Below, in pieces: positions 33,247 to 54,236 of a DNA stretch of 64,000 nt. The notes under the pieces were generated by a model, which had not been told where the DNA came from, ran no database searches, and worked only from the letters and a program-made list of their open reading frames with translations. The stretch is from Calditrichota bacterium. GTDB taxonomy: Bacteria > Zhuqueibacterota > Zhuqueibacteria > Thermofontimicrobiales > Thermofontimicrobiaceae. The stretch's first letter is position 1, and every line of letters starts with the position of its first letter. Position numbers and translations under genes: made by a program. The stretch covers positions 1 through 64,000 of the forward strand of contig JAADFU010000200.1 in the NCBI GenBank assembly GCA_013152715.1. The letters run 5' to 3'.

Positions 33247-33262
33247 TGGCACTCTAATTGCA
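33247..33262 (+). promoter_or_regulatory. Sigma-54 (RpoN) promoter of the metal-cofactor genes
   Basis: TGGCAC-TCTAA-TTGCA matches the -24/-12 consensus (TGGCAC, five bases, TTGC) exactly, 35 bases before the ATG of the first NifX-like gene. A palindrome TACTAACTTTAGTA at 33201-33214 could be part of an activator site. A matching sigma-54 activator gene lies at 48375. The Desulfovibrio ORP operons are likewise sigma-54 dependent. Confidence 0.8.
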
Positions 33263-33296
33263 TTAGAATATTTGCAATTTTGAAGGAGACTTGAAA

Positions 33297-33671
33297 ATGA
33301 ACATTTGTCTGGCAGCCTACGGGAATCGCATTGCATCATTGCTGGAAACATCGGACCGGTTAATTTTGCTTCATTCGCCTGACTTCGACAAATCAAATAT
33401 GAAGACGATTCCCCTCTACAGCGGAGCCTATAACGACATTCTGAAAATTTTACAGGAAAATGGCGTGAATACACTCATTTGCGGCGCAATCACTGCCTGT
33501 GTGCATGATTTGTTGCAGGCGCAAAATATAAAGATTATTCCCTGGATTACCGGCAATGTAGCAGAGATCATTGATGCGCTGAGTCAAAACAGAATGCTCA
33601 CTCCTGATTTCAACATGCCGGGCAGGGGCAAGAGAAGCCGTTTTCGCCATGGTTCAATGAGAAAACATTAA
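33297..33671 (+). CDS. NifX/NifB-type Mo-Fe cluster-binding domain protein (copy 1)
   Basis: A 124-residue single-domain protein of the dinitrogenase Fe-Mo-cofactor family (RNase H-like fold). The diagnostic part is TLICGAITACVHDLLQAQNIKIIPWITGNV, close to the NifB/NifX C-terminal pattern, followed by a basic tail (GRGKRSRFRHG). Such proteins bind preformed metal-sulfur clusters. AAGGAG precedes ATG 33297, just downstream of the sigma-54 promoter. No nitrogenase structural genes are nearby, so nitrogen fixation is not implied. It leads a probable operon running to 37800. Confidence 0.85.
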   Translation: MNICLAAYGNRIASLLETSDRLILLHSPDFDKSNMKTIPLYSGAYNDILKILQENGVNTLICGAITACVHDLLQAQNIKIIPWITGNVAEIIDALSQNRMLTPDFNMPGRGKRSRFRHGSMRKH

Positions 33672-33702
33672 GCTATTTCATACTAAAATGAGGAAAAGGA
33701 AA

Positions 33703-34056
33703 ATGAAAATTGCAGTAACAGCAATGGGAACAAATTTGCGAGCAAAAGTTGATCCTCGATTCGGTCGAGCGCAAAATTTCATCATTGTGGACCCTGAAAC
33801 ATCGGAATATGAAGCCATTTCAAACGAAGGGGTGAACGCGGCACATGGCGCCGGAACGCAGTCGGCGCTTTTGATGAGCCAGAATGGCGTGGAAGCAGTG
33901 ATTACGGGCAATGTCGGCCCTAATGCGCACCAAACTCTCGCAGCGGCTGGCATCAAGATGTATCAGCTCAGCGATGCTACTGTCGAGGAAGCAATTGAAA
34001 AATTCAAAAATAATGAGTTGCAAGAAATTACTCAAGCCGGTCCTGCCGGGCATTAA
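33703..34056 (+). CDS. NifX/MTH1175-type cluster-binding protein (copy 2, ORP-like)
   Basis: A 117-residue protein starting MKIAVTAMGTNLRAKVDPRFGRA, with the FGRA segment and ITGNVGPNAHQTL loop typical of the small MTH1175/orange-protein subfamily. It binds Mo, Fe or Cu-containing sulfur clusters in characterised relatives. The ATG at 33703 follows AGGAAAAGGA; an earlier in-frame ATG at 33688 is less likely. It is similar in layout to the protein at 49722. It lies 31 bases after copy 1. Confidence 0.9.
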   Translation: MKIAVTAMGTNLRAKVDPRFGRAQNFIIVDPETSEYEAISNEGVNAAHGAGTQSALLMSQNGVEAVITGNVGPNAHQTLAAAGIKMYQLSDATVEEAIEKFKNNELQEITQAGPAGH

Positions 34057-34076
34057 ACCAAAATTTTGGTGCTGAA

Positions 34077-34496
34077 ATGTACGCAATTAACAGTGCAAAA
34101 TGTGATGGGTGCAAACAATGCATGGAGGTCTGCGAGGCGGGAGCGATTTATTTGGTGGATGAAAAAGCTCGTGTTGAGCCAAATCTTTGTACAGAATGCG
34201 GATTGTGCATCGATGCCTGCCCGCAAAGTGCAATTGTTGTCAGCGGCTACGAATTGCAGGCAAAGTACTCGGACGAATTATCGCCGCAAAGGTCGTTTCT
34301 AACTCTTGCAAAAACAGGTCTGTCAGTCATGGGAAGTGTGCTGTTGCCTGTGCTCATGTCTAAAGTTAGTGACTTTCTTGTCTCGAAAGTAGAAGACGTC
34401 GGTGCACCCGCATCCCAGCAAAAGACTGGTGAGAAAATTATCCGCGGACAAGGGAGAAGAATAAGAAAACGAATGCGAAAAAAATTTAGCAGATAG
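34077..34496 (+). CDS. 2[4Fe-4S] ferredoxin with basic C-terminal extension
   Basis: A 139-residue protein. Two CxxCxxCxxxC clusters (Cys9, 12, 15, 19 and Cys38, 41, 44, 48) define a bacterial-type ferredoxin. The C-terminal 85 residues hold a hydrophobic segment (about 78-98, LSVMGSVLLPVLMSKV) and a strongly basic tail (GRRIRKRMRKKF), so it may associate with the membrane or an acidic partner. It probably passes electrons to the neighbouring cluster proteins; that role is inferred from context. Confidence 0.88.
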   Translation: MYAINSAKCDGCKQCMEVCEAGAIYLVDEKARVEPNLCTECGLCIDACPQSAIVVSGYELQAKYSDELSPQRSFLTLAKTGLSVMGSVLLPVLMSKVSDFLVSKVEDVGAPASQQKTGEKIIRGQGRRIRKRMRKKFSR

Positions 34497-34502
34497 GGAA
34501 GA

Positions 34503-34625
34503 GTGATTTTTCTGAAAAATGCTTTGTTGATTTTTTCGCTGCTGAGTTTTTTCCTGATGAAAAAGCAGCGGAGCATAACAAATACAATGGAAATTGCACC
34601 ATGGGAAAAGTTATTTTACAGGTAG
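34503..34625 (+). CDS. Possible 40-residue membrane peptide
   Basis: A GTG-initiated frame seven bases after the ferredoxin stop codes for a peptide with one hydrophobic helix (FLKNALLIFSLLSFFLM) then a basic, then mixed tail. AGGGAAGA stands close to the GTG. Its end overlaps the next gene by 25 bases, which would couple the two. A hairpin (CGCTGCT 34537-34543 with AGCAGCG 34564-34570) lies inside it, so the stretch could instead be a non-coding intercistronic structure. Confidence 0.35.
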   Translation: MIFLKNALLIFSLLSFFLMKKQRSITNTMEIAPWEKLFYR

Positions 34626-35329
34626 TCTTTGACAATCTGAGTTATTTGCCCGAACTGAAAACAGCCTGGGGATATAGCTGCATCGTCGAAACTGATTCAG
34701 ACACAATTTTATTCGACGCCGGCAGCGATGGCGAGATTTTGCTGCACAATTTGACCAAATTGAAAATTGATTTAAAATCTATCAGTGCGATGGTTATTTC
34801 CCACGAACATTGGGATCACGTTGGTGGTTTGTGTGCATTTTTGCAGAAAAATTCAAATGTCACAGTTTATGTGCCCTTTTCATTTTCAGCAGAGGGGGAA
34901 AATGAAATTTTCAGGATGGGCGCGAAAGTAACGCGCGTAAAAAATAAACTGCAAATTGCAGAAAAAATTTATTCGTTGGGGGAATTGCCGGGAAGTGTGT
35001 TAGAACAATCGCTGATAGTTGACATACCGGAAGGCATGGTAATTCTCACCGGCTGCGCGCATCCGGGCATTGTGAAAATTGTTGAAAATGCAAAATCACT
35101 GTTCCCTCAAAAGTCAGTTTTTCTGGTCATGGGCGGTTTTCATTTGAAAGACAATGCGATTTATCAGATCAGAGAAGTCGCTGATCAATTAAAACAACTT
35201 GGAGTGCAGAAAGTCGCTCCGAGTCACTGCTCAGGAAATTTTGCTTTGAAATATTTCGCGTCAGGATTTGGAAATAATTTTATCAATTCAGGGGTTGGTA
35301 AAAAAATTGAAATACAGAAGGGGCAATAG
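34601..35329 (+). CDS. MBL-fold metallohydrolase
   Basis: A 242-residue metallo-beta-lactamase-fold protein related to the dihydropteridine/RFA-P-synthase-like branch (COG1237). Metal motifs are HEHWDH at 68-73, the GCAHPG segment, GGFH and PSHCSG. The family binds two Zn or Fe/Mn ions. Substrate unknown. It sits in the sigma-54-led metal-cofactor series, overlapping the small frame before it. ATG 34601 lacks a strong ribosome-binding site, in keeping with coupling. Confidence 0.85.
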   Translation: MGKVILQVVFDNLSYLPELKTAWGYSCIVETDSDTILFDAGSDGEILLHNLTKLKIDLKSISAMVISHEHWDHVGGLCAFLQKNSNVTVYVPFSFSAEGENEIFRMGAKVTRVKNKLQIAEKIYSLGELPGSVLEQSLIVDIPEGMVILTGCAHPGIVKIVENAKSLFPQKSVFLVMGGFHLKDNAIYQIREVADQLKQLGVQKVAPSHCSGNFALKYFASGFGNNFINSGVGKKIEIQKGQ

Positions 35330-35407
35330 GGTGTTTATGATAATAGCCATTAATGGTATTTTCATTTAACAAAAAGAAAATCATTAATAAATCTGGAGGT
35401 GATAATT

Positions 35408-35632
35408 ATGCCAAGAGGAGACGGAACAGGACCTGCCGGACAGGGACCGGGAACCGGAAGGGGGCTGGGACGAGGAGGCGGACGTGGCAGAATGGGAGGA
35501 GCACGCCCGGGATCAGGTCCCGGCGGAAATTGCGTTTGTCCGTCATGCGGGACAGTGATTGCCCATCAGCGAGGAGTTCCCTGTTATCAATTGCAGTGTC
35601 CCAAATGCGGCGCCACAATGACCAAGGAATAG
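35408..35632 (+). CDS. Gly/Arg-rich protein with zinc-ribbon tail
   Basis: A 74-residue protein. The N-terminal 40 residues are a flexible Gly/Arg/Pro tract starting MPRGDGTGPAGQGPGTGRG, like the DUF5320 start; residues 42-74 carry CPSC and CPKC knuckles (Cys44/47 and 64/67, plus Cys42 and Cys59) around HQRGVPCYQLQ. The same knuckle sequence is found in the protein at 39151. GGAGG stands before ATG 35408. Probably binds Zn or an Fe-S unit; function unknown. Confidence 0.82.
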   Translation: MPRGDGTGPAGQGPGTGRGLGRGGGRGRMGGARPGSGPGGNCVCPSCGTVIAHQRGVPCYQLQCPKCGATMTKE

Positions 35633-35642
35633 CGGGTGTTCA

Positions 35643-36365
35643 ATGAAAATTTTGCACGATCTGGTAAATGCTGTCGATAGAAATTTTCCGGTGAAAGATG
35701 TTCAAGTCGGACTCCATTGGACGGCTGTAGTCAGTCGATTTTGCGGGCTGGCGTCGAGTCTGATCGATCCGCCACCGCATCAAAATCACAAAATTAGTGA
35801 TGCGGGGCGGCTTCATCAAAAGAGCATTGGCGAATTGTCCGCTTTGATTTTTTCTGCCAGTCTGTCGGAGGCAAGCGTTGGACTGGCGGCGCTCAATTCA
35901 CTGATTGAAATTGACGAAAGCAAATGCGAGCCGATAAATGCTTTTGAGATCATTGCTGAGAAGGGGACTGACAGGACCATTGGAATTATCGGACATTTTC
36001 CGTTTGTTTCTAAATTGAAAACAGTGGCGAAAAAAGTTTATGTTTTCGAGAAAAGGTTGCAGGAAGGTGATTTGCCTGCTTCAGAAATTGAGAATAAACT
36101 ACCCGAATGCGATATCGTTGCTATTTCAGCGACAACTTTGATCAACCACACGCTGGAAAATGTATTGAGTTTTTGCAGAAAAGATGCGTTGAAAATTATG
36201 CTTGGCGCGTCAACACCGATGTTGGAGTTACTATTTGACTATGGATTGGATGTTTTAGCAGGAAGTAAAGTGGAAAACCCAGAGGAGGTTTTGATGGCCG
36301 TGCGCCAGGGAGCAACGTTCAAACAAATTCACGGGATCAAATTGCTGGCGCGGATGAGGAAATAA
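35643..36365 (+). CDS. DUF4213/DUF364 putative heavy-metal chelation protein
   Basis: A 240-residue protein whose N-terminal enolase-like DUF4213 domain (about 1-85) is followed by a Rossmann-like DUF364 domain (about 100-235) with TIGIIGHFPFV and CDIVAISATTLINHTLE. Members are linked to metal-cofactor loci, and the structure of one member suggested heavy-metal chelation. It follows the zinc-ribbon gene after ten bases and precedes a membrane carrier after eighteen, so all three are probably one operon. Confidence 0.82.
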   Translation: MKILHDLVNAVDRNFPVKDVQVGLHWTAVVSRFCGLASSLIDPPPHQNHKISDAGRLHQKSIGELSALIFSASLSEASVGLAALNSLIEIDESKCEPINAFEIIAEKGTDRTIGIIGHFPFVSKLKTVAKKVYVFEKRLQEGDLPASEIENKLPECDIVAISATTLINHTLENVLSFCRKDALKIMLGASTPMLELLFDYGLDVLAGSKVENPEEVLMAVRQGATFKQIHGIKLLARMRK

Positions 36366-36383
36366 ATAAAGGAGATTTGTTGC

Positions 36384-37403
36384 ATGGTAGGTGTTTTAAA
36401 ACATTCACTAATGATCACAGTGTTTGTTTTTGTGATGATGTTGATTGTTGATTTTGTGAATGTGATTACCAAAGGCAAAATGTCCTCGAGTTTGAAAACC
36501 AATCGCTGGAGTCAATATTCAATCGCTTCTTTTTTGGGAGCGACTCCCGGCTGTCTCGGAGCTTATTTGAATGTTTCATTTTACGTCCATGGCTTGCTTT
36601 CTTTCGGTGCGATAGTGGGCGGGATGATCGCAACTTCCGGCGATGAGGCATTTGTCATGTTGACGCTTTTCCCGAAAACAGCCTTGTTGTTATTCGGTAT
36701 TTTGTTCGTTTTAGGTATCGTCCTTGCCTGGGTTACGGATAAGGTAACGCCACTGTTGCCCATTAAGCCATGTCACGAATGCAAGCTGCAACAAGTTCAT
36801 ACTGCCGATACATTTGCCGGTTTTGAAAAAGAAGATTTGATGAAAAATTTGTTGAAAATTTCGTGGCTGCGGTTGGGATTTTTGGCTTTCTCAATTTTGT
36901 TTCTTATGGCGTTAACCAGCGGCGCGATCGGGCCTCAGAACTGGGACTGGAAAAGAGTAACGATGACGAGTTTGATCGCGATTGCAGCTATCATCGTTGG
37001 TAGTGTTCCAGAGCACTTTTTGCGCGAACACGTCTGGAATCATATTGTGAAGAAACATTTGTGGCGAGTTTTTTTGTGGTCGTTTTTCGCTATTTTTCTG
37101 GTAGAAATCGGTTTCAAATATTGGAATTTGGAAGCATTTGTCAGAAATCACCATGCCTGGGTCGGAATTATTGCTGTGCTGATTGCGCTGCTGCCTGAGT
37201 CGGGTCCCCATTTGATTTTTGTAATGATGTTTGCTCAAGGAATGATTCCTTTCTCAATTCTATTAGCGAGTTCCATCGTGCAGGATGGGCATGGAATGCT
37301 TCCCTTGCTTTCTTATTCGATAAAAGATTCGGTTTTGATTAAATTGTTTAATTTGGCTTTTGGAGTCATTTTTGGTCTAACTTTTTATTTATTTGGCTTT
37401 TAA
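36384..37403 (+). CDS. Putative metal (manganese/arsenic-type) permease
   Basis: A 339-residue membrane protein with about nine or ten helices and two inverted motif copies: GATPGCLGAYLNVSFYVHG ... GGMIATSGDEAFVM in the first half and LPESGPHLIFVMMFAQG ... SSIVQDGHGMLPLL in the second. A polar middle loop has a CHEC pair. This matches the family annotated as putative manganese transporter or arsenic efflux. Substrate and direction are unproven. Located beside chelation and cluster-binding genes, it may move the metal that the locus uses. Confidence 0.8.
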   Translation: MVGVLKHSLMITVFVFVMMLIVDFVNVITKGKMSSSLKTNRWSQYSIASFLGATPGCLGAYLNVSFYVHGLLSFGAIVGGMIATSGDEAFVMLTLFPKTALLLFGILFVLGIVLAWVTDKVTPLLPIKPCHECKLQQVHTADTFAGFEKEDLMKNLLKISWLRLGFLAFSILFLMALTSGAIGPQNWDWKRVTMTSLIAIAAIIVGSVPEHFLREHVWNHIVKKHLWRVFLWSFFAIFLVEIGFKYWNLEAFVRNHHAWVGIIAVLIALLPESGPHLIFVMMFAQGMIPFSILLASSIVQDGHGMLPLLSYSIKDSVLIKLFNLAFGVIFGLTFYLFGF

Positions 37404-37425
37404 TCCCTGGAAGGAGGTGACGAAA

Positions 37426-37800
37426 ATGCCAGCAGGTGACGGAACAGGACCCATGGGAATGGGCCCCATGACCGGAAGAGCAGCAGGTTATTGCGCTGGT
37501 TACGGTAGACCTGGTTATGCGAATCCAATTTTCGGACGCGGCGGCTTTGGTTACGGACGCGGATTGGGCGGTTATGGTCGAGGACATCGTAATTGGTATT
37601 GGGCGACGGGACAGCCAGGTTGGGCGCGTTCGGGTTGGGGCGCGGCTTATCCGGTCAATTATGGCGTCGCTTATCAAGCGCCGGTTGCTCCTGAGCAAGA
37701 ATTGGATATTCTGAAAAATCAGGCGAAATCGTTTCAGGATGCCCTGGAAAATGTGAACAAACGCATTGAAGAATTGGAAAAAGAATCTCATAATGAATAA
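37426..37800 (+). CDS. DUF5320-type glycine-rich protein with C-terminal coiled coil
   Basis: A 124-residue protein: MPAGDGTGPMGMGPMTGRAAGYC start, a Gly/Tyr/Arg-rich middle (about 24-85) and a helical coiled-coil end (about 90-124). The family is common beside NifX and Mrp-type genes in anaerobes; its function is unknown. AAGGAGG lies six or seven bases before ATG 37426. It is the last gene before the inverted repeat at 37820-37920. Confidence 0.85.
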   Translation: MPAGDGTGPMGMGPMTGRAAGYCAGYGRPGYANPIFGRGGFGYGRGLGGYGRGHRNWYWATGQPGWARSGWGAAYPVNYGVAYQAPVAPEQELDILKNQAKSFQDALENVNKRIEELEKESHNE

Positions 37801-38088: not shown

Positions 38089-39048
38089 TTGAGCGGAAAT
38101 AAATTCAAACATTTATTCGGTCCCGTGCCTTCGCGGCGTTTGGGAATTTCGCTGGGAGTTGATCTGGTTCCGCATAAAACGTGTTCTTTGAATTGTGTCT
38201 ACTGTGAGTGCGGAAAAACGACTGATTTAACAGTTGAGCGGAAGCAATATATTCCAACAACGGATGTAATTGAAGAATTGGGCGAATTTCTCAAAGATCG
38301 TCCAAAATTGGATTTCATCACTTTTTCCGGTTCAGGCGAACCTACCCTGCATTCAGGAATCGGTGAAATTTGTGATTTCATAAAATCAAATTTCCCCGAA
38401 TACAAATTAGCGTTGCTGACAAACGGCACATTGTTTTTTGATCCGGCAGTAAGGCAGGAAGTCAAAAAGATTGACATTATTCTTCCGTCGCTGGATGCGG
38501 CGACCGAAGATATTTTCAAAAAAATCAATCACCCTCATCGAGATCTGAAAATTAACGCCATCATCGACGGGATCGTCAAATTGCGATCTGAATTCACCGG
38601 AAAAATGTGGCTGGAAATCTTCATTGTGCCCGGGCTTAATGACACATCGGAACAAATTGCGGCTTTGAAAGACGCGGTTCATTTTATTCAGCCTGATTTG
38701 GTGCAATTAAATACGCTTGACAGGCCCGGAACCGCCGAATGGGTTCGGCAGGCATCAAAAAAGACATTAGAAAAAATAGCTGAACAGTTAGATTGGGAAA
38801 CGGAGATAATTGCAAATTTTAAAAAGAGAGAACAAATAAGCAGCTACAGCATTGATGTGGAAAACGCAATATTGCAAATGCTGCGTCGCCGGCCCTGCAC
38901 AACGGCGGATCTTTCCGCATCTTTGGGGAAGCATGAAAATGAAATAAACAAATACATTGAAGCCTTGTTGGAGAAAAATATTATTGCTGCAAAAAGAATG
39001 TCGCGCGGTAATTTTTTTCTCACTCAAACTGAGGCTGAAGAAAATTGA
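38089..39048 (+). CDS. Radical SAM protein (COG0731-like) with winged-helix tail
   Basis: Predicted [4Fe-4S] radical enzyme of 319 residues. Early signature GPVPSRRLGISLGVD and the CSLNCVYC triad (Cys32, 36, 39) are followed by FSGSGEPTLH and LEIFIVPGLND. The C-terminal 70 residues look like a winged helix (ILQMLRRRPCTTADLSASLG). The GPVPSRR branch is common in anaerobes and its substrate is unsettled. The only usable start is TTG at 38089, without a strong ribosome-binding site, so the true start could differ by a few codons. Confidence 0.83.
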   Translation: MSGNKFKHLFGPVPSRRLGISLGVDLVPHKTCSLNCVYCECGKTTDLTVERKQYIPTTDVIEELGEFLKDRPKLDFITFSGSGEPTLHSGIGEICDFIKSNFPEYKLALLTNGTLFFDPAVRQEVKKIDIILPSLDAATEDIFKKINHPHRDLKINAIIDGIVKLRSEFTGKMWLEIFIVPGLNDTSEQIAALKDAVHFIQPDLVQLNTLDRPGTAEWVRQASKKTLEKIAEQLDWETEIIANFKKREQISSYSIDVENAILQMLRRRPCTTADLSASLGKHENEINKYIEALLEKNIIAAKRMSRGNFFLTQTEAEEN

Positions 39049-39150: not shown

Positions 39151-39597
39151 ATGCCATTTGGATTTGGAGGCGGAAGAGGACGTGGACGAGGTGGCGGCGG
39201 TGGCGGTCGCGGAATGGGCGGAGGAGGAAGAGGACGGTTTTTATCAGAAAAAAATAATTTTTGTATTTGTCCCAATTGCAAAACAGTTGTACCGCATCAG
39301 TTAGGAGTCCCTTGTTATCAGACGATTTGCCCCAATTGCGGCACTCCGATGACGCGACAATTTCAATCGGGTCTGCAAAACGCAGGACCAGTACCAACGG
39401 CAGCGCCAATGGCGCAGATCCCCAACGTAGATGCGGAAATGTGTACGGGCTGCAGAAAATGTCTCAATGTTTGTCCGGTAAATGCCATTAAAATGGTTGA
39501 TAACAACGCGGTCATTGATGCCAATCAATGCAGTGGCTGTTTAGTCTGCATTCCTGCTTGTCCGTTTGGGGCAATTAAGGTAGGAGAGAATGGCTGA
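39151..39597 (+). CDS. Gly-rich zinc-ribbon protein fused to 2[4Fe-4S] ferredoxin
   Basis: A 148-residue three-part protein: a Gly/Arg tract (1-30), a zinc-ribbon (Cys40/43 and 60/63 around HQLGVPCYQTI) and a ferredoxin (Cys98, 101, 104, 108 and 127, 130, 133, 137). The ribbon is nearly the same as in the protein at 35408, so one is a duplicated and fused version of the other. GGAGG precedes ATG 39151. Its end overlaps the cation-efflux gene by eight bases, so the two are coupled. Probably an electron or cluster carrier. Confidence 0.87.
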   Translation: MPFGFGGGRGRGRGGGGGGRGMGGGGRGRFLSEKNNFCICPNCKTVVPHQLGVPCYQTICPNCGTPMTRQFQSGLQNAGPVPTAAPMAQIPNVDAEMCTGCRKCLNVCPVNAIKMVDNNAVIDANQCSGCLVCIPACPFGAIKVGENG

Positions 39598-40867
39598 CAA
39601 AACAGCACAATTAAAAATGGGGCAGAAGATTGCATTTTGGGCGACTTTGATCACGTTGCTGCTTTCTGCGCTCAAAGGCGTGGTAGGCGTTGCGTTTGAT
39701 TCCAAAGTGTTGGTCGCTGATGCCTTTCATAGCGGTGCTGACAGTATCGCCATTTTCGCATCGGGATTCGGACTGTGGCTTGCGGCGAGAAAAAAAAGCG
39801 AGCGTTTTCCGTACGGTCTCTACAAAGCGGAGACATTTGTAACTTTGTTCATTGGCGGATTCATTGTGTGGGCAGGCGCGGAATTACTGATTGAAGGATA
39901 TCGCAAATTATTCGTTGTGCCTCCGATCATAAAATTTCCGATTTTGCCTGTTTGCGCATCGGTAATTTCGATCGTGATTGCCTTTTTTATCGCCAGAAAA
40001 GAGAAAAAAGTCGGCGAGCAGATTCACTCGCAATCTTTAATTGCCAACGGCAAGGAATCGTTTCTGGACATTTTCTCATCGACTGTGGTTTTGCTGGGCA
40101 TTCTCGTGGCTTATTGGCGCATTCCCTACGTGGAAAGCGCAATTATCATATTGATTTCCTTGCTGATTTTGAAATTGGGAATGGAAAATATCTGGAATTC
40201 GCTGCTGGTTTTGATGGATGCAAATTTGGACAAGCCTTTGCAGGGGGAGATAGAGAAGCTTGTTTCAGAAGTAACAGGCGTCAAGTCGGTGAATCATGTG
40301 AAAATCAGGCAAGCAGGTCCTTTTCGCCTGGTGGAAACCGAATTTGCCACAAATCCATCAATTACAATTTTTCAGGCGCATGAGATTGCCGATGATGTGG
40401 AAAAACAAATTATGGAAAAATTCCCTTCTGTGGAATCCGTATTTGTCCATGTGGAGCCGTCGCGCCAGCGAGAAATTCGTGCGATTATTCCGGTAAAAAA
40501 TATCGATGGTCTGCGTTCGCAGGTTAATAGTCATTTCGGCAGAGCGCCGTACTTTGTCATTTTGAAAATATTTGATGACAATGTTGAAATTGAAGACTTT
40601 TACCTCAATGAATTTTTAGATCGTAAACAGCACATTGGAGTGCACGTTGTTAAGGTAATCGTGAATTACGATCTGGACATGGTTTTCACAAGCCAAATCG
40701 GTGAAATCTCTTTTTACATGCTGAAGGAGAATTTTATTGATCTTTATCAGATTGGCAATGAGGATGCCAAGGTGGAAGACGTGATAGCGATGTACAAAGA
40801 AAACAAGCTTCCGCGCATTACCGCACCCACGCACTCTGTGGATGAAGCGGAAGTTGAAAAGGAGTAA
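39590..40867 (+). CDS. Cation diffusion facilitator fused to a NifX-type domain
   Basis: A 425-residue fusion. Residues 10-210 are a six-helix CDF carrier; the metal site would be His47 and Asp51 in DAFHSGAD (helix 2) with Glu156 and Asp160 in KESFLD (helix 5), instead of the more common HxxxD or DxxxD in helix 5. Residues 210-292 are the usual cytoplasmic domain. Residues 295-410 form a NifX/MTH1175-like domain (VNSHFGRAPYFVILKI). The metal is open: Fe, Mn, Co or Zn. Such a fusion links export to a cluster or metal-binding domain. Confidence 0.88.
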   Translation: MADKTAQLKMGQKIAFWATLITLLLSALKGVVGVAFDSKVLVADAFHSGADSIAIFASGFGLWLAARKKSERFPYGLYKAETFVTLFIGGFIVWAGAELLIEGYRKLFVVPPIIKFPILPVCASVISIVIAFFIARKEKKVGEQIHSQSLIANGKESFLDIFSSTVVLLGILVAYWRIPYVESAIIILISLLILKLGMENIWNSLLVLMDANLDKPLQGEIEKLVSEVTGVKSVNHVKIRQAGPFRLVETEFATNPSITIFQAHEIADDVEKQIMEKFPSVESVFVHVEPSRQREIRAIIPVKNIDGLRSQVNSHFGRAPYFVILKIFDDNVEIEDFYLNEFLDRKQHIGVHVVKVIVNYDLDMVFTSQIGEISFYMLKENFIDLYQIGNEDAKVEDVIAMYKENKLPRITAPTHSVDEAEVEKE

Positions 40868-40950: not shown

Positions 40951-41337
40951 ATGAAAATCGCCGTTGCAACCGACGATAAGATTTTCATTCGCAAGGGACA
41001 TTTTGGCGAAGGAAAATACTATCTGATTTATGAAATTCTGAACGGGAAAATATTTTCCGAAGAATTGCGGCCTAATCCGGACGTGCTTGAAGAAAAACAT
41101 CAACACGGTAATGCCGAGAGAGTTATGGAATTGCTCAATGATTGCCAGATTTTTATGGCGCAAAGCATGGGGAAAAAATCAATTAAAAAACTGGCGGAAA
41201 ACAGTTTTGAAGTGATCATTTCCACTATTGAAGAAGCCGAAAAAGCCGTTAGCTCTTACCTTGATGGCCAGGATGATTTGTTCAAGTATTACGACAAGGA
41301 AGCAGATGCCTTGCTTTCCTGCGCCAGCAGAAGTTAG
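40951..41337 (+). CDS. NifX-type cluster-binding domain protein (copy 3)
   Basis: A 128-residue protein starting MKIAVATDD, with the domain's GHFGEGKYYLIYEI and CQIFMAQSMGKKSIKKL segments. It is more divergent than the copies at 33703 and 49722 and has a short Cys-containing tail (LLSCASRS). AAGGAG stands before the ATG. It follows the CDF-NifX fusion, so the gene may have arisen with it. Confidence 0.82.
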   Translation: MKIAVATDDKIFIRKGHFGEGKYYLIYEILNGKIFSEELRPNPDVLEEKHQHGNAERVMELLNDCQIFMAQSMGKKSIKKLAENSFEVIISTIEEAEKAVSSYLDGQDDLFKYYDKEADALLSCASRS

Positions 41338-44586: not shown

Positions 44587-44644
44587 GAGAATTGACAGAA
44601 TTGTTTGAGTAACTTGAGATTAGTTTGATTGACGAAAGTGATTG

Positions 44645-45919: not shown

Positions 45920-45931
45920 TGGAGAGTTGCT

Positions 45932-45979
45932 ATGAGAAGAAATTTAATCGTTTCGTCCGTCATTCTTTTGTTGATTTAA
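45932..45979 (+). pseudogene. Possible truncated secreted-protein gene (signal-peptide stub)
   Basis: GGAGAG is well placed before an ATG that codes for MRRNLIVSSVILLLI and then stops. This reads as the start of a signal peptide followed by a premature TAA. No matching continuation was found in the other frames of the next 280 bases. It could be a chance frame or the remnant of a deleted secreted protein. Confidence 0.25.
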
Positions 45980-46129
45980 AATATCCGATTTGTTCAAGTT
46001 TAAGCTTTAATGCTACTAAATTCCAATGGAAAGAATTTCTTTTTTGACATAATGAAGATTATTTACAAGATCAGAGAAACTGCAGGCGTGTTTTTCTGAA
46101 CCTAAGGCGAAGTCATTTTTAAAAATTTT

Positions 46130-46188
46130 CAATAAATCATTTGATTTATTGAAGGAATATGCTTATTTTTCATTTAAACCTGCAGGTT
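46130..46188. promoter_or_regulatory. Two palindromes before the cyclopropane synthase gene
   Basis: CAATAAATCA-TT-TGATTTATTG (46130-46151) and AACCTGCAGGTT (46177-46188) are perfect palindromes in the upstream region of the synthase gene (ATG at 46268). They look like operator sites or a small hairpin. A bound regulator is not identified. Confidence 0.45.
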
Positions 46189-46267
46189 AGGATTTTGTTG
46201 CCACAATGAGAGAAAATAACGGCTTTTATGAAAGCTAATAATCCAATCTGAAACCGGAGGTAGCAAA

Positions 46268-47380: not shown

Positions 47381-47398
47381 AGAAAGACAGGAGTGACT

Positions 47399-48382
47399 AT
47401 GGTTCGCGCTGAAGTAATAGTCGTCGGCGGCGGTCCCGCTGGCTCGACCTGCGCCTGGAAATTGAAGCAGCTTGGCATTGATGCGCTGATTTTGGATAAA
47501 AAACCATTCCCGCGGCTTAAATTATGTGCTGGCTGGATTCAGCCGGAAGTAATTTCGGATTTGGAAATTGAAATCGATGACTATCCGCACCGCATCGTGA
47601 GGTTTGATCGTTTTCGCGTGCACATTAAAAATAAAAATTTGAAGATCCCGGTGAATCAATACGCCATCCGAAGAATCGAATTTGACGAGTGGCTTTTGCA
47701 GCGTTCAGGCGCTGATGTTCACACGCACGAGGTGAAAAATATTGAACAGCGCGGTGAATTTTACGTGATCGATGAAAAATTCGAGTGCCGCTATCTCGTG
47801 GGCGCTGGCGGGACGTATTGTCCTGTTTATCGAACTTTTTTTAAAGAAAAGAAACCCAGACGCAAAAATTTAATGATCGCCAGCCTGGAGCATGAATTTG
47901 CATACGATTATCAGGACGAAAATTGTCATCTTTGGTTTGTGCAAAACAATCTGCCGGGTTACTCCTGGTACGTGCCCAAAGGAAATGGCGTCCTTAATCT
48001 TGGCGTTGGCGGCTACGCGGAGAAAATCAAGGCGAACAGGGATACAATCAAAAATCAGTGGGAATTCTTCGTCAAGGAACTCAAAAAGCTAAACTTGGTT
48101 CAAAAAGTCGATTTTGAGCCCAAAGGATATGTTTACTTTCTCCGCGATGATAACGATTTTGTTCAAAATGGACGTGCTTATGTAATTGGCGATGCTGCCG
48201 GTTTGGCAACGAGAGACATGGGCGAAGGAATCGGACCCGCGGTGCGCAGCGGCATTTTGGCGGCGGAATCGATAGTTCAGAAGAAACCTTTTTCGCTGAA
48301 AAGAATCAAAAAGAATAGTTTCTCGAAGCCGGGAATGTTGTACAAGTTAGGGCGAGCATATCTATTGAGAAGTTATGATTAA
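47399..48382 (+). CDS. Geranylgeranyl-reductase-family FAD oxidoreductase
   Basis: A 327-residue flavoprotein with the Rossmann dinucleotide loop VVGGGPAGSTCAWKL at the start and the GDAAGLATRDMGEGIGPAVRSG segment near the end, typical of the family that saturates isoprenoid double bonds or oxygenates rings. It has the conserved Cys in RLKLCAGW. With the cyclopropane synthase just upstream, a lipid or isoprenoid-quinone role is likely but unproven. AGGAG precedes ATG 47399. Its end overlaps the sigma-54 activator gene by eight bases. Confidence 0.82.
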   Translation: MVRAEVIVVGGGPAGSTCAWKLKQLGIDALILDKKPFPRLKLCAGWIQPEVISDLEIEIDDYPHRIVRFDRFRVHIKNKNLKIPVNQYAIRRIEFDEWLLQRSGADVHTHEVKNIEQRGEFYVIDEKFECRYLVGAGGTYCPVYRTFFKEKKPRRKNLMIASLEHEFAYDYQDENCHLWFVQNNLPGYSWYVPKGNGVLNLGVGGYAEKIKANRDTIKNQWEFFVKELKKLNLVQKVDFEPKGYVYFLRDDNDFVQNGRAYVIGDAAGLATRDMGEGIGPAVRSGILAAESIVQKKPFSLKRIKKNSFSKPGMLYKLGRAYLLRSYD

Positions 48383-49706
48383 AGATCAGAAACACAATGA
48401 AATAATTCTGGACAGCATCGCCGATGGCGTTTTTACTGTGGATTGCGACTGGCGAATAACGTCTTTCAATAAAGCCGCGGAAGGAATCACCGGCGTCTCT
48501 AAAAAAGAGGCGCTGGGAAGCATCTGTCGCGATGTTTTTCATTCCAATGTGTGCGATAGCCAGTGCGTTTTGAAACAGAGCATCAAAGAAAACAGGTATA
48601 TCAGGAATAAATCGATTTACATCGTGAATGCCAAAGGCGAACAGGTGCCGATTACCATCAGCGCTGCGCCTTTGAAAGATGAAAGTGGCAAAATTATCGG
48701 TGGCGTTGAATCATTTCGCGATGTTTCGGAAATCGTTGAATTACGAAAAAAGCTTGAAAAAAAATATTATTTTCAGGATATAATCAGCAAAAGCGCGGGA
48801 ATTCAGAAAATCTTTAGCATCTTGCCGGACATCGCTGTGAGCGACAGCACGGTTTTGATTCGAGGCGAGAGCGGAACCGGAAAGGAATTGTTCGCACAGG
48901 CGATTCACAATTTGAGCAATCGCGCTAAAAAACCGTTGATCATCGTCAACAGCGGAGCGCTGCCGGACACATTATTGGAATCTGAACTGTTTGGCTACAA
49001 AGCCGGCGCTTTCACCGACGCCAAAAGAGACAAGCCGGGAAGGTTTGCGCTGGCTGATAGCGGTACTATTTTCCTGGATGAAATAGGGGATGTTTCTCCG
49101 GCGCTGCAAGTTCGTTTGCTGCGCGTTTTGCAGGAGAAAACTTACGAGCCGTTGGGTTCCACAGAATCAATAAAATCGGATGTGCGTATCATTGCGGCGA
49201 CCAATAAAAATTTGGAAAAAATGGTTGAAGAGGGGACATTTCGGGAAGATCTGTATTATCGGCTCAATGTCGTTTCCATTTCTCTTCCGCCATTACGAGA
49301 GAGGAAAGAGGACGTTCCGCTGCTCGTTAATCAGTTTATCGACAGATTTAACAAATTAAAAAATAAAAATATTGAAGGCGTCTCCGATGAAGTGTTGACC
49401 GTGCTGATGAATTACGATTTTCCGGGAAATATCAGAGAATTGGAAAATATCATTGAGTACAGTTTTATTCTCTGTCACGGAAAAACGATTCACATCAACC
49501 ATCTCCCGGAGCAGTTGACGTCGAAATTCAGGAAAGTGAGTCAGCAAATCACTGCCGGAATGACTCTGGCCGAAATTCAAAAGCGTGCGGTGGAGCAGGC
49601 ACTAATTCGAAATAATTGGAAAAAAATGGCGACAGCCCGAGAATTGAATGTCGACAAAGGCACTTTGCGGAGAATGATTCAAAGATTGGGAATTGAAGAA
49701 CCTTAA
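48375..49706 (+). CDS. Sigma-54-dependent transcriptional activator with Cys-containing PAS domain
   Basis: Activates RNA polymerase-sigma-54 by ATP hydrolysis. The 443 residues: PAS domain (about 5-120) with Cys24, 51, 60 and 64, AAA+ domain (Walker A GESGTGKE 164-171, sigma-contact loop GAFTDA 211-216, Walker B FLDEIGD 233-239) and a Fis-type helix-turn-helix (about 405-440). The Cys set in the PAS suggests a cluster, haem or thiol redox sensor. The loop has Asp in place of the usual Gly (GAFTGA). Its position next to ORP-like genes matches the Desulfovibrio activator, and it probably acts at 33247. Confidence 0.93.
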   Translation: MIKDQKHNEIILDSIADGVFTVDCDWRITSFNKAAEGITGVSKKEALGSICRDVFHSNVCDSQCVLKQSIKENRYIRNKSIYIVNAKGEQVPITISAAPLKDESGKIIGGVESFRDVSEIVELRKKLEKKYYFQDIISKSAGIQKIFSILPDIAVSDSTVLIRGESGTGKELFAQAIHNLSNRAKKPLIIVNSGALPDTLLESELFGYKAGAFTDAKRDKPGRFALADSGTIFLDEIGDVSPALQVRLLRVLQEKTYEPLGSTESIKSDVRIIAATNKNLEKMVEEGTFREDLYYRLNVVSISLPPLRERKEDVPLLVNQFIDRFNKLKNKNIEGVSDEVLTVLMNYDFPGNIRELENIIEYSFILCHGKTIHINHLPEQLTSKFRKVSQQITAGMTLAEIQKRAVEQALIRNNWKKMATARELNVDKGTLRRMIQRLGIEEP

Positions 49707-49721: not shown

Positions 49722-50042
49722 ATGAAAATTGCCGTGACAGCAAAAGGCGGCTCTATGAGCGCGCAAACAGATGAAAGATTTGGTAGATGCAAATATTTTG
49801 TGATTGTGGATTCTGAAACCATGGGCTTCACTATTTTTGAAAATCCAAGTTTCGGAGCAGCCAGTGGCGCGGGCCCTGCGGCAGCGCGAGAGATTTCCCG
49901 GCACAACGTAGAAGTTTTACTAACTGGCAATGTCGGCGTCAATGCGCAGCAGGCGCTGGACGCCGTTGGGGTTAAGGTGGTGACAGGAGTTGGCGGCTTG
50001 ACCGTGAAAGAGGCCGTAGAAAATTATTTGCAACAGCAATGA
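49722..50042 (+). CDS. NifX/MTH1175-type cluster-binding protein (copy 4, ORP-like)
   Basis: A 106-residue protein starting MKIAVTAKGGSMSAQTDERFGRCKYF and containing LLTGNVGVNAQQALDAVGV. It follows the sigma-54 activator gene by 15 bases, as in ORP-type loci, and shares its framework with copy 2 at 33703. The Desulfovibrio orange protein, its closest functional analogue, binds a Mo-Cu-sulfide cluster. Metal here unknown. Confidence 0.9.
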   Translation: MKIAVTAKGGSMSAQTDERFGRCKYFVIVDSETMGFTIFENPSFGAASGAGPAAAREISRHNVEVLLTGNVGVNAQQALDAVGVKVVTGVGGLTVKEAVENYLQQQ

Positions 50043-50192: not shown

Positions 50193-51041
50193 ATGAGTTT
50201 AAATACGATTGGTCTTGACGACAAAACAAAGCAAAAACAATTACTTGATGACATGATCAAGGAAAACATGACGCGCATAAAACATAAAATAATTGTCATG
50301 AGCGGCAAGGGCGGCGTTGGCAAAAGCACAGTGGCGACAAATTTGGCATTTGGATTGAAGAATGCCGGCTTCAGGGTTGGCGTGATGGATACCGATATTC
50401 ATGGCCCCTCTTTGGGAAAAATGTTAGGCATCGAGGGCCAGGCGCTGCGTCCCAGCGAAAAAGGAAATGGCTTGTTGCCCAATGAAATCGACGGCATCAA
50501 AGCAATTACTATGGCGACGTTGTTGCAAGATCCGGATGCGCCGGTTATTTGGCGCGGTCCTTTGAAAATGGGCGCCATTAAACAATTCCTCGGCGAAATC
50601 GAGTGGGGCGATCTGGATTATCTGGTTATCGATTCTCCTCCCGGAACAGGCGACGAGCCGCTGAGCGTTTGCCAGCTCATTCCGGAAGCTGACGGTTCCA
50701 TTATCGTCACCACGCCTCAGGATGTGGCGCTGATTGATTCCAGGAAAACCGTCCATTTTTCCCAAGCGTTGAAAATTCCGGTGCTGGGAATTATTGAAAA
50801 CATGAGCGGCTTCAAATGTCCGCATTGCGGGGAACCCATTGATTTGTTCAAAATCGGCGGCGGCGAACGGGCTGCGCATTCAATGAATGTGCCGTTTTTA
50901 GGAAGGATTCCCATTGATCCGAAAATTGTGGAAACCGGCGATGACGGCACGCCTTACATCACCGACTATGCCAAGTCCGAAGCCGGAAAAGCGATGCAGG
51001 AAATTGTGAATAATATCATCGAGAGAACCAATCAGAAGTAA
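50193..51041 (+). CDS. mrp: Mrp/NBP35-family iron-sulfur carrier ATPase
   Basis: Binds and passes [4Fe-4S] clusters to target proteins in the cytoplasm. A 282-residue protein with the deviant Walker A MSGKGGVGKST (about 36-46), the DTDIHGPS segment, VIDSPPGTGDE and the CPHC pair (Cys209/212) that bridges the cluster in the dimer. There is no N-terminal DUF59 domain; a separate DUF59 protein is coded at 53470. GGAGG stands before the ATG. ORP-type loci also contain an Mrp-like ATPase. Confidence 0.93.
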   Translation: MSLNTIGLDDKTKQKQLLDDMIKENMTRIKHKIIVMSGKGGVGKSTVATNLAFGLKNAGFRVGVMDTDIHGPSLGKMLGIEGQALRPSEKGNGLLPNEIDGIKAITMATLLQDPDAPVIWRGPLKMGAIKQFLGEIEWGDLDYLVIDSPPGTGDEPLSVCQLIPEADGSIIVTTPQDVALIDSRKTVHFSQALKIPVLGIIENMSGFKCPHCGEPIDLFKIGGGERAAHSMNVPFLGRIPIDPKIVETGDDGTPYITDYAKSEAGKAMQEIVNNIIERTNQK

Positions 51042-51061
51042 TCTCAATTAATTGAAAAGCA

Positions 51062-51102: not shown

Positions 51103-51183
51103 TATTTTCGTGCTAATTTTGAGTTGTGAAAAAATGAACAAATTGCCGGCTGTGTAATTTGAAAATAGAAAGGCAGAATTGCC

Positions 51184-52023
51184 ATGATTATCAGCGTCGC
51201 CAGCGGAAAAGGCGGAACCGGTAAAACTACTCTTGCCATCAATTTGGCGCTTTCATTGGAAAAAAATGTCCAGTATCTCGATTGTGATGTGGAAGAACCA
51301 AACGGCCATATTTTTGTGAAGCCGAAATTTGATGATGAACTGAGTTTCGGGATGCCAATACCGGTTGTCGATTTTGACAAATGCGATTATTGCGGAAAGT
51401 GCGGCGAAATTTGTGAATACAACGCCATTGTCGTCATTAAGCAGAACGTGCTCGTTTTTCCTGACCTCTGTCATTCTTGCGCCGGGTGCTGGCTCGTTTG
51501 TCCACAGAAAGCAATTTCAACGGAAGACAGAGAGATCGGCAAATTAGAACGCGGAGACCGGAACGGAATAGAATTTATCCACGGAAAACTCAACGTTGGC
51601 GAGGCTTTGTCGCCGCCTTTGATTCGCGAAGTGAAGAAAAAAATGGACAAAAAGAAAACAGTGATCATCGATTCGCCTCCTGGGACATCCTGTCCGGTCA
51701 TCGAAGCGATCAAAGATAGCGATTTTGTCCTTTTGGTCACAGAACCGACGCCTTTCGGGCTAAATGATCTGAGATTGGCCGTGGAAATGGTGCGAAAAAT
51801 CGGCTTGAATTTCGGTGTGGTTATCAATCGCGCCGATGTGGGCAACAGAGAAGTACATGACTATTGCACCCGTGAAAATATCCCCATTTTGATGGAAATT
51901 AATAACGACAGAAAAATTGCAGAGGCTTATTCGCGCGGAATGCCCATTGTCGATTTGTATCCCGAATTTAAAGACAAGTTTTTGGCGTTGTATCGGGAAA
52001 TCGAAGGGAGGGTTGCCGCATGA
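51184..52023 (+). CDS. MinD/ParA-type ATPase with inserted 2[4Fe-4S] ferredoxin (first)
   Basis: A 279-residue protein: Walker A SGKGGTGKTT (about 7-16), a ferredoxin insertion with two clusters (Cys67, 70, 73, 77 and 96, 99, 102, 106), then the ATPase remainder with VIIDSPPGTSCP. The combination matches the MinD-like subunits of the ORP complex. The stop overlaps the second ATPase start by four bases, so the two probably form a heterodimer. Confidence 0.92.
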   Translation: MIISVASGKGGTGKTTLAINLALSLEKNVQYLDCDVEEPNGHIFVKPKFDDELSFGMPIPVVDFDKCDYCGKCGEICEYNAIVVIKQNVLVFPDLCHSCAGCWLVCPQKAISTEDREIGKLERGDRNGIEFIHGKLNVGEALSPPLIREVKKKMDKKKTVIIDSPPGTSCPVIEAIKDSDFVLLVTEPTPFGLNDLRLAVEMVRKIGLNFGVVINRADVGNREVHDYCTRENIPILMEINNDRKIAEAYSRGMPIVDLYPEFKDKFLALYREIEGRVAA

Positions 52024-52871
52024 GAGAGATAGTGATTATTAGCGGAAAAGGCGGTACCGGTAAAACAACTGTCACGTCTGCGTTTGCTTCGTTGGCAGGA
52101 AAAAAGGTGATGGCCGATTGCGATGTGGACGCTGCCGATCTTCATTTGATTCTAAAACCGGATATTAAGCATCGTGAAGATTTCCGCAGCGGAAGGAAGG
52201 CCTACATTCGCCAGCAGGATTGTATTGATTGCGGGAAATGCATTGAAGTGTGTCAGTTTGATGCCATTAGCGACGACTACGTTGTCGATCAGATTTCATG
52301 TGAGGGTTGCGGCGTTTGTGTCTATTTCTGCCCGGTGGACGCCATTGATTTTAATGAGGTTGTGAGCGGAGAATGGTTCATTTCGGAAACCCGTTTCGGG
52401 CCTCTCGTGCACGCAAAACTTGGCATCGCCGAAGAAAACTCCGGCAAATTAGTTTCTCTGGTACGCCGGCAGGCGAAATTGATCGCGGAAGAGAAGAATC
52501 TGGACTATGTCATTGTTGACGGTTCGCCTGGTGTGGGCTGTCCGGTTATTTCTTCGATTACCGGTGCAGATGCCGTACTCATTGTCACGGAACCGACGCT
52601 TTCCGGAGTTCACGATCTGGAGCGAGTCGTAAATTTATCCAAGGGGCATTTTGGCATCAACACCTACGTTTGCGTGAACAAATATGACTTGAACGAAGAA
52701 ATTACTGAAGAAGTCGAAAAATTTTGCCAGGAGAATGAGGTAATTTTCGCCGGAAAAATCCCTTACGATACCGAGGTTACGGCGGCGATGGTTGCGGGAA
52801 AGAACGTCATCGAGTATTCCGATGGCAGAATCGCGCAAGCGGTGCGATCGATTTGGGAAAAAGTTAAATGA
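52020..52871 (+). CDS. MinD/ParA-type ATPase with inserted 2[4Fe-4S] ferredoxin (second)
   Basis: A 283-residue paralogue of the preceding protein: Walker A SGKGGTGKTT (about 8-17), ferredoxin insertion with Cys68, 71, 74, 78 and 94, 97, 100, 104, and VIVDGSPGVGCPV. ATGA overlap couples it to the first. The pair corresponds to the two MinD-ferredoxin genes of the Desulfovibrio ORP operons. A terminator follows at 52924. Confidence 0.92.
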   Translation: MREIVIISGKGGTGKTTVTSAFASLAGKKVMADCDVDAADLHLILKPDIKHREDFRSGRKAYIRQQDCIDCGKCIEVCQFDAISDDYVVDQISCEGCGVCVYFCPVDAIDFNEVVSGEWFISETRFGPLVHAKLGIAEENSGKLVSLVRRQAKLIAEEKNLDYVIVDGSPGVGCPVISSITGADAVLIVTEPTLSGVHDLERVVNLSKGHFGINTYVCVNKYDLNEEITEEVEKFCQENEVIFAGKIPYDTEVTAAMVAGKNVIEYSDGRIAQAVRSIWEKVK

Positions 52872-52923
52872 GTTTCTGGTTTGTCGTTTCGGGTTTCGAG
52901 TTAGCGCGTTTCAGTTTGATAAT

Positions 52924-52976
52924 GCCGCTTTCTTTGCAAACAAAAGAAAATTTCTGTGACCTCTGCGGCTTTTTTT
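52924..52976 (+). terminator. Terminator after the paired MinD-type genes
   Basis: GCCGC at 52924-52928 pairs with GCGGC at 52965-52969, then seven T. The loop is long (36 bases), so efficiency may be modest and the genes beyond may be read through. Confidence 0.55.
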
Positions 52977-53004
52977 AAATTTACAAGAAATCGGAGGTGT
53001 AATC

Positions 53005-53451
53005 GTGAGCAAATCTGTGAAAATCGGGATCATTATCTGCGACCGCTACCGAACGTGCGCTGGCGGCAAATGTCTGCGGGCACTGCGTAATCGGGAAGGG
53101 GCTTTTGCTATTTATCAAGGAAAAGACGTCGAATTGGTCGGTTACACGACTTGCGACGGCTGTCCGGGCGGAAATATCGAATATGCACCGGAGGAAATGA
53201 AAAGTAATGGCGCTGAAGTCATCCATTTAGCGACTGGGCTTTTGGTCGGCTATCCGCCGTGTCCGTATCTGACTCATTTTCGGGATTTTATTGAAAACAA
53301 ATATGGCTTGAAAGTCGTTTATGGCACACATCCGATTCCTGAAAAATATTTGAAAACGCATCAGGAATTGAAAACGTGGGCATCGCCGGAGTGGGAGGAA
53401 ATTTTAGCGCCCACAATGGCGGACCAAGAGACGAGATTGACTTATAACTAA
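53005..53451 (+). CDS. CGGC domain-containing protein
   Basis: A 148-residue protein with Cys-rich N-terminal half: CDRYRTCAGGKCLRAL and TTCDGCPGGNIEYAPEEM, then GLLVGYPPCPYLTHF. The CGGC family is a putative metal-binding domain found in anaerobes and methanogens. GTG 53005 follows GGAGG at good spacing. It sits between the MinD-type ATPases and the DUF59 gene, so a part in cluster assembly is likely. Confidence 0.83.
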   Translation: MSKSVKIGIIICDRYRTCAGGKCLRALRNREGAFAIYQGKDVELVGYTTCDGCPGGNIEYAPEEMKSNGAEVIHLATGLLVGYPPCPYLTHFRDFIENKYGLKVVYGTHPIPEKYLKTHQELKTWASPEWEEILAPTMADQETRLTYN

Positions 53452-53469
53452 AAATACCGGTGTGAAAAA

Positions 53470-53757
53470 ATGGAATTACGAGAAAAAGTCATTCAAGCGT
53501 TGAGCCAGGTGATCGACCCTGAGACCAGCCTGGACGTGGTACGCATGAGATTAGTGATAGACCTCAAGGTGACAGACGACGGTGTGGTTTCTTTGACTTT
53601 TATTCCGTCGTCGCCGGTTTGTCCGCTGGGATTTCAACTGGCGATTAGCATCCAGGAAGCATTGAAAAAAGTAGAGGGTGTAAAAGACATTAAAATTGAA
53701 GTGAAAAACTTCGTCTATGCTGAACAGGTGAAAATAGCGCTGGAGCAAAACAAATGA
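53470..53757 (+). CDS. DUF59/MIP18-type metal-sulfur cluster assembly factor
   Basis: A 95-residue single-domain protein with IDPETSLDVVRM near the start and IPSSPVCPLG, where the conserved Cys lies (about residue 51). Related proteins (PaaD, SufT, CIA2) help insert Fe-S clusters. Here it complements an Mrp protein that lacks the fused version of this domain. The stop overlaps the next gene by four bases. Confidence 0.88.
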   Translation: MELREKVIQALSQVIDPETSLDVVRMRLVIDLKVTDDGVVSLTFIPSSPVCPLGFQLAISIQEALKKVEGVKDIKIEVKNFVYAEQVKIALEQNK

Positions 53758-54236
53758 AGCCGATAACATTAAAACCCATCGGCGTGATTCATTCGCCGTA
53801 CAAAAATTCTAAGGACATGCCTATTCAGGGTATATTTAAACCTGAAGTGGTGGCGTGGGTTGAGTTGGCTGAAAAATATGTCCCCGGTTTGAAAGACCTG
53901 GACGAATTTAGCCATGCGATTCTCATTTATTATTTCCATCTGACAGAAGAAGAGCGTTTGCGGGGGAGACCCTATCTGGAAGATGAAAAGCACGGCGTTT
54001 TTGCCATTCGCAGTCCACACAGGCCTAACCATCTCGGTTTCACCGTTGTAAAGATCCAAAAGATCGAAGGAAACAGACTCTATTTCAGCGACGTAGACAT
54101 GATCGACGGCACTCCGTTGCTGGATATTAAACCTTATTGTCCGGAGTTCGATCAGAGGGAAAATGTGAAGTATGGCTGGATTGAAAAGCATTTTTCCGGA
54201 AAGAAAATTCCCGAGAGAACTATTTTGAAAAAATGA
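53754..54236 (+). CDS. TsaA/TrmO-family SAM-dependent methyltransferase
   Basis: A 160-residue beta-barrel enzyme of the TrmO type, which N6-methylates t6A37 in some tRNAs. Family motifs are LKPIGVIHSPY, FSHAILIYYFH, GVFAIRSPHRPNHLGFTVV and IDGTPLLDIKPY. In anaerobes this gene is often found in metal-cofactor loci rather than beside tRNA genes, so another substrate is possible here. It overlaps the DUF59 gene by four bases and ends the cofactor region. Confidence 0.85.
   Translation: MKPITLKPIGVIHSPYKNSKDMPIQGIFKPEVVAWVELAEKYVPGLKDLDEFSHAILIYYFHLTEEERLRGRPYLEDEKHGVFAIRSPHRPNHLGFTVVKIQKIEGNRLYFSDVDMIDGTPLLDIKPYCPEFDQRENVKYGWIEKHFSGKKIPERTILKK

Follow-up and report, generated by a model that had tools for sequence, protein, structure and literature searches.

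Two transcription units and a candidate ORP-type metal-sulfur system in a Calditrichota genome

The locus described here raises the question of whether two neighbouring gene blocks form one system or two. Our window, i.e. the whole stretch of 64,000 nt that was analysed (positions 1-64,000, forward strand, of contig JAADFU010000200.1, Calditrichota bacterium assembly GCA_013152715.1), belongs to a genome of 4.15 Mb in 211 contigs that is 98% complete. Two units, at 33.3-37.8 kb and 48.4-53.8 kb, lie entirely on the + strand, as do all features of the window given below. An earlier note, made from the sequence alone, had read the genes at 48.4-52.9 kb as the core of an orange-protein (ORP)-type system, a kind studied almost solely in Desulfovibrio, and those at 33.3-37.8 kb as a second, unrecognised set. 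We arrive at a different reading, to which we assign a probability of roughly 0.6: a single ORP-type metal-sulfur system in two transcription units, which combines cluster loading with metal export and whose 33.3 kb unit is switched on by the sigma-54 activator (enhancer-binding protein, EBP) encoded at 48.4 kb.

Linkage of the two blocks in other genomes

To compare the gene order, we used gene clusters from 82 genomes of the same phylum and 80 loci, mostly from Desulfobacterota, that had been found with D. gigas ORP. In the Desulfobacterales locus L144 a single cluster (EBP-NifX1-DUF5320-NifX2-Mrp-CGGC-MinD1-MinD2-DUF364-MBL) unites almost every part of the two window sets, and both sets likewise share one cluster at locus L063. 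Relatives at the level of the order carry NifX1-NifX2 followed by zinc-ribbon (ZnR), DUF5320 and radical SAM genes and then by EBP-Mrp-MinD1-MinD2 (L056), by ferredoxin (Fd), ZnR and MinD1-MinD2 (L229), by Fd-ZnR-DUF5320 and then MinD1-MinD2 (L054), or by Fd-MBL-ZnR-DUF364 and then DUF5320, which is the order of the window (L036). Within the same genus the block at 44.6-54.2 kb is found in identical order (L234). DUF5320 is present in 39/82 genomes of the phylum and co-occurs with the MinD pair (29 genomes with both, 4 and 10 with a single one, 39 with neither; Fisher p=1e-9). In almost all ORP-bearing genomes that were searched, MinD1 and MinD2 form a single adjacent pair. The MBL gene recurs in clusters of genomes G004, G008 and G003 and in L144; DUF364 is rare (4/60 relatives) and, together with ArsP_2, represents a variable part.

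Since the same genes recur in one cluster elsewhere, we do not regard the 33.3-37.8 kb genes as a separate system. The second set proposed earlier has NifX1 at its start, next to an ORP homologue, and it clusters with Mrp and the MinD pair both in relatives and in Desulfobacterota. The assignment to the ORP type itself holds, given that D. gigas ORP shares 43% identity with NifX2 and likewise with NifX4, that Mrp is of the MrpORP type and that the EBP belongs to an ORP-linked clade; its division into a core and a second set is not supported. Recurrence of the 33-38 kb genes, on which the note had staked its second set, is observed for both NifX1 and NifX2 as well as for ferredoxin, zinc ribbon and DUF5320; DUF364 is rare and ArsP_2 variable.

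Promoter of the 33.3 kb operon and its candidate activator

The operon is preceded by the sigma-54 promoter TGGCACTCTAATTGC at 33247..33261, which matches TGGCAC-N5-TTGC exactly, as the earlier note had stated, and which is kept before NifX1 in relatives. The window has no other exact match, and reversed and complemented controls gave 0; genome-wide, the pattern TGGCAY-N5-TTGCW occurs 21 times versus 5 times for the reversed pattern. The genome contains a single RpoN gene and three HU/IHF-family genes. With up to one mismatch allowed, a sigma-54 site was found within 350 nt upstream of 19/42 NifX1 genes (reversed control, 0/42) and before 0/56 EBP genes. As no such site was detected upstream of the 48.4-53 kb genes either, the sigma-54 control claimed for the whole system is limited to the 33.3 kb operon.

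Upstream of the promoter lie two palindromes that are candidate EBP sites, namely GGGCACATAAAGCACTC at 33121..33137 (11/14 to GGGYGCA-N3-TGCRCCC, its position kept in order-level relatives) and, 32 bp after it, AGGAGCATATTGCACCC at 33153..33169 (12/14), which is the sole exact match to RGGNGCA-N3-TGCNCCY in the genome. They are followed by TATCAATGAATTA at 33216..33228, a perfect match to the IHF consensus WATCAR-N4-TTR (PMC3897727). In the window's order, two 17-bp palindromes of the type GGGYGCA-N3-TGCRCCC are found near -176 and -144 relative to the start codon, whereas 18-bp palindromes (AGTYGCA-N4-TGCRACT) are found outside it. A palindrome matrix derived from the full set of relatives was discarded: it misses the window because the site of this order has 17 bp and a 3-bp spacer instead of 18 bp, while the order-level pattern detects it. 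Tandem palindromes 30-35 bp apart are present in 36/49 NifX1 promoters as compared to 5/392 shuffles. Many of these 49 promoters had contributed to motif building, so that six promoters which were fetched later and kept out of it provide a fair test; all of them (6/6) carry the pair. Within the host genome, just 1/21 strict sigma-54 sites, the one at 33247, is accompanied by the pair. An IHF consensus lies between palindromes and promoter in 9/49 NifX1 promoters (0.63 expected). In D. vulgaris the orp promoters, which require EBP, IHF and sigma-54, show the order palindrome, IHF site, sigma-54 site (PMC3897727), and the predicted elements of the window promoter follow the same order. Terminator and sigma-70 scans performed no better than chance. 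In genome G004, two NifX1 copies (L036:5976-6362 and 13983-14366) each possess their own upstream sigma-54 site and palindromes. What this analysis newly brings out is the double-palindrome enhancer conserved across phyla, together with the constancy of the NifX1 gene.

The proposed activator of the operon (48375..49706) consists of a PAS domain, an AAA+ domain with the motif GAFTDA and a Fis-type helix-turn-helix. In a tree built by a quick method only, it falls into a 40-row clade of ORP-linked EBPs (SH-aLRT 99) and groups with the EBPs of Desulfovibrionaceae orp loci (support 90), while 21 of the genome's 22 other EBPs are placed outside the wider group linked to ORP; the cognate activator suggested by the earlier note is thereby supported. 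This EBP may bind the two upstream palindromes. The host encodes a second EBP (L206; G000 C192:27610-28920) with 44% identity over approximately the whole length, placed at the edge of the ORP-linked clade. GAFTDA, shared with DVU2106 (PMC4641369), was dropped as a signature of ORP systems, because it is present in only 16/40 close relatives, which divide into 16 with D, 16 with G and 7 with N.

Gene products of the two units and their neighbours

A Pfam scan detected all families that the earlier note had named in the window: four separate NifX/MTH1175 proteins and one fused to a CDF carrier, the activator, Mrp, two MinD-ferredoxin ATPases, CGGC and DUF59 proteins, as well as ferredoxin, DUF364/4213 and a metal permease (ArsP_2) in the first block. 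PF02579 scored above its cut-off in each of NifX1 to NifX4 and at the C-terminal end of the CDF protein, so that 5/6 PF02579 domains of the genome lie within the window. The sixth NifX gene (L005:9354-9719, G000 contig C147) is located apart from the ORP genes, near two genes for TauE/SafE-look permeases and one for an FmdE-like protein. A profile built on seven mixed NifX domains lacked the stringency needed for scanning; three closer rows worked.

NifX1 (33297..33671; most likely start codon, ATG 33297) opens the operon and is a degenerate NifX-fold protein (LICGAI...MPG) with a weak PF02579 match (about 27.4-27.5 bits, cut-off 26.3). Among 27 aligned members of its family, 26 match PF02579, and the CG...G...PG positions are conserved. 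An AlphaFold (AF2) model shows a NifX fold (pLDDT 87.6), the closest PDB structures being 2yx6, 1o13, 1rdu, 1eo1 and ORP 2wfb, i.e. NifX, MTH1175 and ORP proteins. The gene directly follows EBP in many loci, including those of Desulfovibrionaceae and kin (L115, L102); the regulated operon of D. vulgaris is DVU2107-2109 (PMC4641369), and by position only NifX1 corresponds to DVU2107. The ORP homologues NifX2 (33688..34056; 2wfb, E=2.1e-21) and NifX4 (49722..50042; top PDB match 2wfb, E=2e-18; MrpORP Di-Nase part, 43.5 bits) belong to unit 1 and unit 2, respectively. NifX3 (40951..41337; PF02579; TIGR02663, 34 bits) or the CGGC protein (53005..53451; PF08821) could stand in for the Orp5 (DVU2105-type) subunit. 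A BaiCD-like FMN/FAD oxidoreductase gene (41846-43768) adjoins NifX3, an adjacency that is also found in the same genus (L043).

The Mrp protein (50193..51041) is of the MrpORP type (NF041136, 371 bits, versus 225 for ApbC) and has a CPHC motif. Its match covers positions 1-254, the P-loop part; at 282 aa it ends before the Di-Nase domain, which is matched by the adjacent NifX4 and is also missing as a fused domain in two Desulfovibrionaceae-type loci. It is followed by MinD1 (51184..52023) and MinD2 (52020..52871), CbiA/ParA ATPases of the Orp3/Orp4 type with a ferredoxin insert, each with two Fer4 motifs, and by the DUF59 Fe-S assembly protein (53470..53757; PF01883). In several relatives MinD1 and MinD2 are fused into a single open frame of 611-670 aa, which suggests that the two proteins work as a heterodimer; such fused frames of 613-636 aa are present at L044:6938-8776 and L045:8044-9951. 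In the MinD1 tree the window protein lies outside a 33-row clade (98/96) that contains all Desulfovibrionaceae, but inside an ORP-linked family whose sampled members are encoded at NifX-bearing loci. The earlier expectation of an ORP-clade MinD pair is therefore correct for the wider family and not for the Desulfovibrionaceae clade.

Downstream of NifX2, unit 1 encodes Fd1, a ferredoxin-like protein with two [4Fe-4S] motifs and a C-terminal extension (34077..34496; Fer4), an MBL-fold hydrolase (34601..35329; PF00753), a small zinc-ribbon/DUF5320-like protein (35399..35632), a DUF4213-DUF364 protein (35643..36365; PF04016, PF13938; PDB 3l5o, 3npg), an ArsP_2 putative metal/arsenic exporter with ten transmembrane helices (36384..37403; PF11449, NF037962) and a DUF5320 protein (37426..37800; PF17253, 102 bits; alignment). 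The small protein at 35399, previously termed a zinc ribbon, remains slightly below the Pfam cut-off (PF17253, 26.4 bits), yet its sequence contains two CxxC pairs, CPSC and CPKC. For the DUF364 family, a heavy-metal or pterin role has been proposed (PMC2954201). Further downstream are a radical SAM protein (38089..39048; PF04055), a protein with a DUF5320-like N-terminus and a two-[4Fe-4S] ferredoxin (39151..39597; Fer4) and a CDF cation exporter with a C-terminal NifX domain (39590..40867; PF01545, PF16916, PF02579). Methyltransferase, MFS, CFA synthase and reductase genes occupy the region between the two units (43948-48382), the last three of which are also located upstream of EBP in the same genus (L234).

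Proposed mechanism, alternatives and known systems

Gene identities, promoter anatomy and conserved linkage, as read from the sequence, suggest the following course of events. The EBP would bind the two palindromes 32 bp apart, IHF would bend the stretch that separates these from the promoter, and sigma-54 polymerase would then be driven at 33247 by the EBP, with NifX1 and NifX2 as the first products of unit 1. Unit 2 would supply the EBP itself, NifX4, the Mrp carrier, MinD1/MinD2, CGGC and DUF59. DUF59 and Mrp may insert [4Fe-4S] clusters into MinD1, MinD2 and ferredoxin, and the MinD pair, with ATP and electrons, may load a metal-sulfide cluster onto the ORP-like NifX proteins or release it from them, while the CDF-NifX fusion and ArsP_2 would export excess metal. 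NifX1 may report the cluster status to the EBP.

Several points weigh against this reading. The EBP is encoded 15 kb from its proposed target promoter, and the lack of a sigma-54 site before the 48.4-53 kb genes leaves co-regulation of the units conjectural. The order-level palindrome was drawn by eye with the window among its source promoters, and in several Desulfovibrionaceae promoters the same motif was not seen. In D. vulgaris, deletion of one IHF subunit gene left orp expression unchanged (PMC3897727), and the published view of ORP is one of cell division.

An ORP core at 48.4-52.9 kb and a separate, new sigma-54-led metal unit at 33.3-37.8 kb could simply be neighbours. The blocks are indeed 10 kb apart with unrelated genes between them, DUF364 and ArsP_2 are foreign to the classic ORP system, and only the first block has the sigma-54 site. 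We nevertheless consider such a coincidence unlikely, as the first two genes of unit 1, NifX1 and an ORP homologue, are those of Desulfovibrio-type loci, as relatives have both blocks in one cluster, and as the EBP, which lies upstream of NifX1 in many of them, here resides in block 2.

With respect to function, metal-sulfur cluster handling with metal homeostasis has to be weighed against cell division. As proposed for D. vulgaris ORP, the MinD pair might act at the poles or the septum with the metal proteins as accessories; a putative part in septum positioning has been described for ORP proteins, MrpORP has a polar location and a C-terminal amphipathic helix is present in Orp3/Orp4 (PMC3897727, PMC6345978, PMC4672049). 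That link is, however, termed a hypothesis by its own authors (PMC4672049), MinD1 and MinD2 remain far below the equivalog level of MinD (TIGR01968; 39 and 58 versus 213 bits), and division genes are absent from the recurrent partners, which comprise ferredoxins, zinc ribbons, DUF59, CGGC, radical SAM, a putative metal exporter and CDF-NifX. Hence a positioning role appears improbable and, in view of the DUF364 protein, the putative metal exporter and the CDF-NifX fusion, metal-sulfur cluster handling with metal export is favoured from the predicted gene content. Even less probable, in our view, is cofactor assembly for one nitrogenase- or F430-like enzyme, with the NifX proteins shuttling the finished cofactor. 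The predicted structure of NifX1 resembles, among others, NifX of the NifEN-NifX complex (9ian), and an ANME-2a locus with CDF, ferredoxins, NifX and a P-loop NTPase has been interpreted as an F430 shuttle (PMC12622379). Yet all window NifX proteins scanned fall short of the NifX and NifB equivalog cut-offs (TIGR02663, ≤34 versus 112 bits; TIGR01290, ≤22 versus 344 bits), no nif or mcr genes were seen in the stretches read, and the system occurs in many lineages with no common client enzyme seen nearby.

A metal-homeostasis role fits the published transcriptome of strain G20 on copper coupons, in which Dde_3197-3199 change together with feoA and flavodoxin (PMC10533852); judging from the locus numbers, these genes probably neighbour the MrpORP gene Dde_3202. 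With the enhancer code, NifX1 as the invariable first gene and metal exporters drawn from the same gene pool, the system can be defined in a portable way and metal homeostasis tested directly against cell division, and a control switch common to distant relatives makes the gene set easier to define and test. As a speculation that we would back only at long odds, ORP-type systems might represent a widespread anaerobic metal-sulfide homeostasis circuit, with NifX1 as the cluster sensor that gates a dedicated EBP via the conserved double-palindrome enhancer, the MinD pair as a nitrogenase-reductase-like loader and CDF-NifX exporting metal straight from an ORP-type domain.

Among known systems, the ANME-2a locus C5S33_05750-05780 (CDF, two 4Fe-4S proteins, NifX, P-loop NTPase) contains the same protein types, a likeness by type only, and differs in its authors' reading as F430 delivery (PMC12622379). 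In D. vulgaris (DVU2103-DVU2109), Orp proteins receive Fe-S clusters from MrpORP, and a Mo-Cu sulfide cluster is present in ORP homologues (PMC6345978). The window shares with this system an ORP-type NifX, a MinD pair with two [4Fe-4S] motifs each, an MrpORP-type Mrp, an EBP of the same clade and, as predicted, the promoter order. In contrast, it comprises two separate one-strand units instead of two operons diverging around the EBP, both of which are sigma-54-dependent in D. vulgaris; its Mrp has no Di-Nase domain, its MinD1 lies outside the Desulfovibrionaceae clade, and DUF5320, zinc ribbon, DUF364, MBL, ArsP_2, CDF-NifX and DUF59 are additional. Desulfobacterota loci that are ORP-like but laid out differently from those of Desulfovibrio (for example L144, L083 and L155) share the series EBP-NifX1-DUF5320-NifX2-Mrp-CGGC-MinD1-MinD2, with DUF364 and MBL in L144, but form one contiguous cluster and have 18-bp palindromes in place of the 17-bp ones of the window's order. 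Taken together, these comparisons give good support to the view that the window system is a real variant of the ORP kind to which metal exporters have been added.

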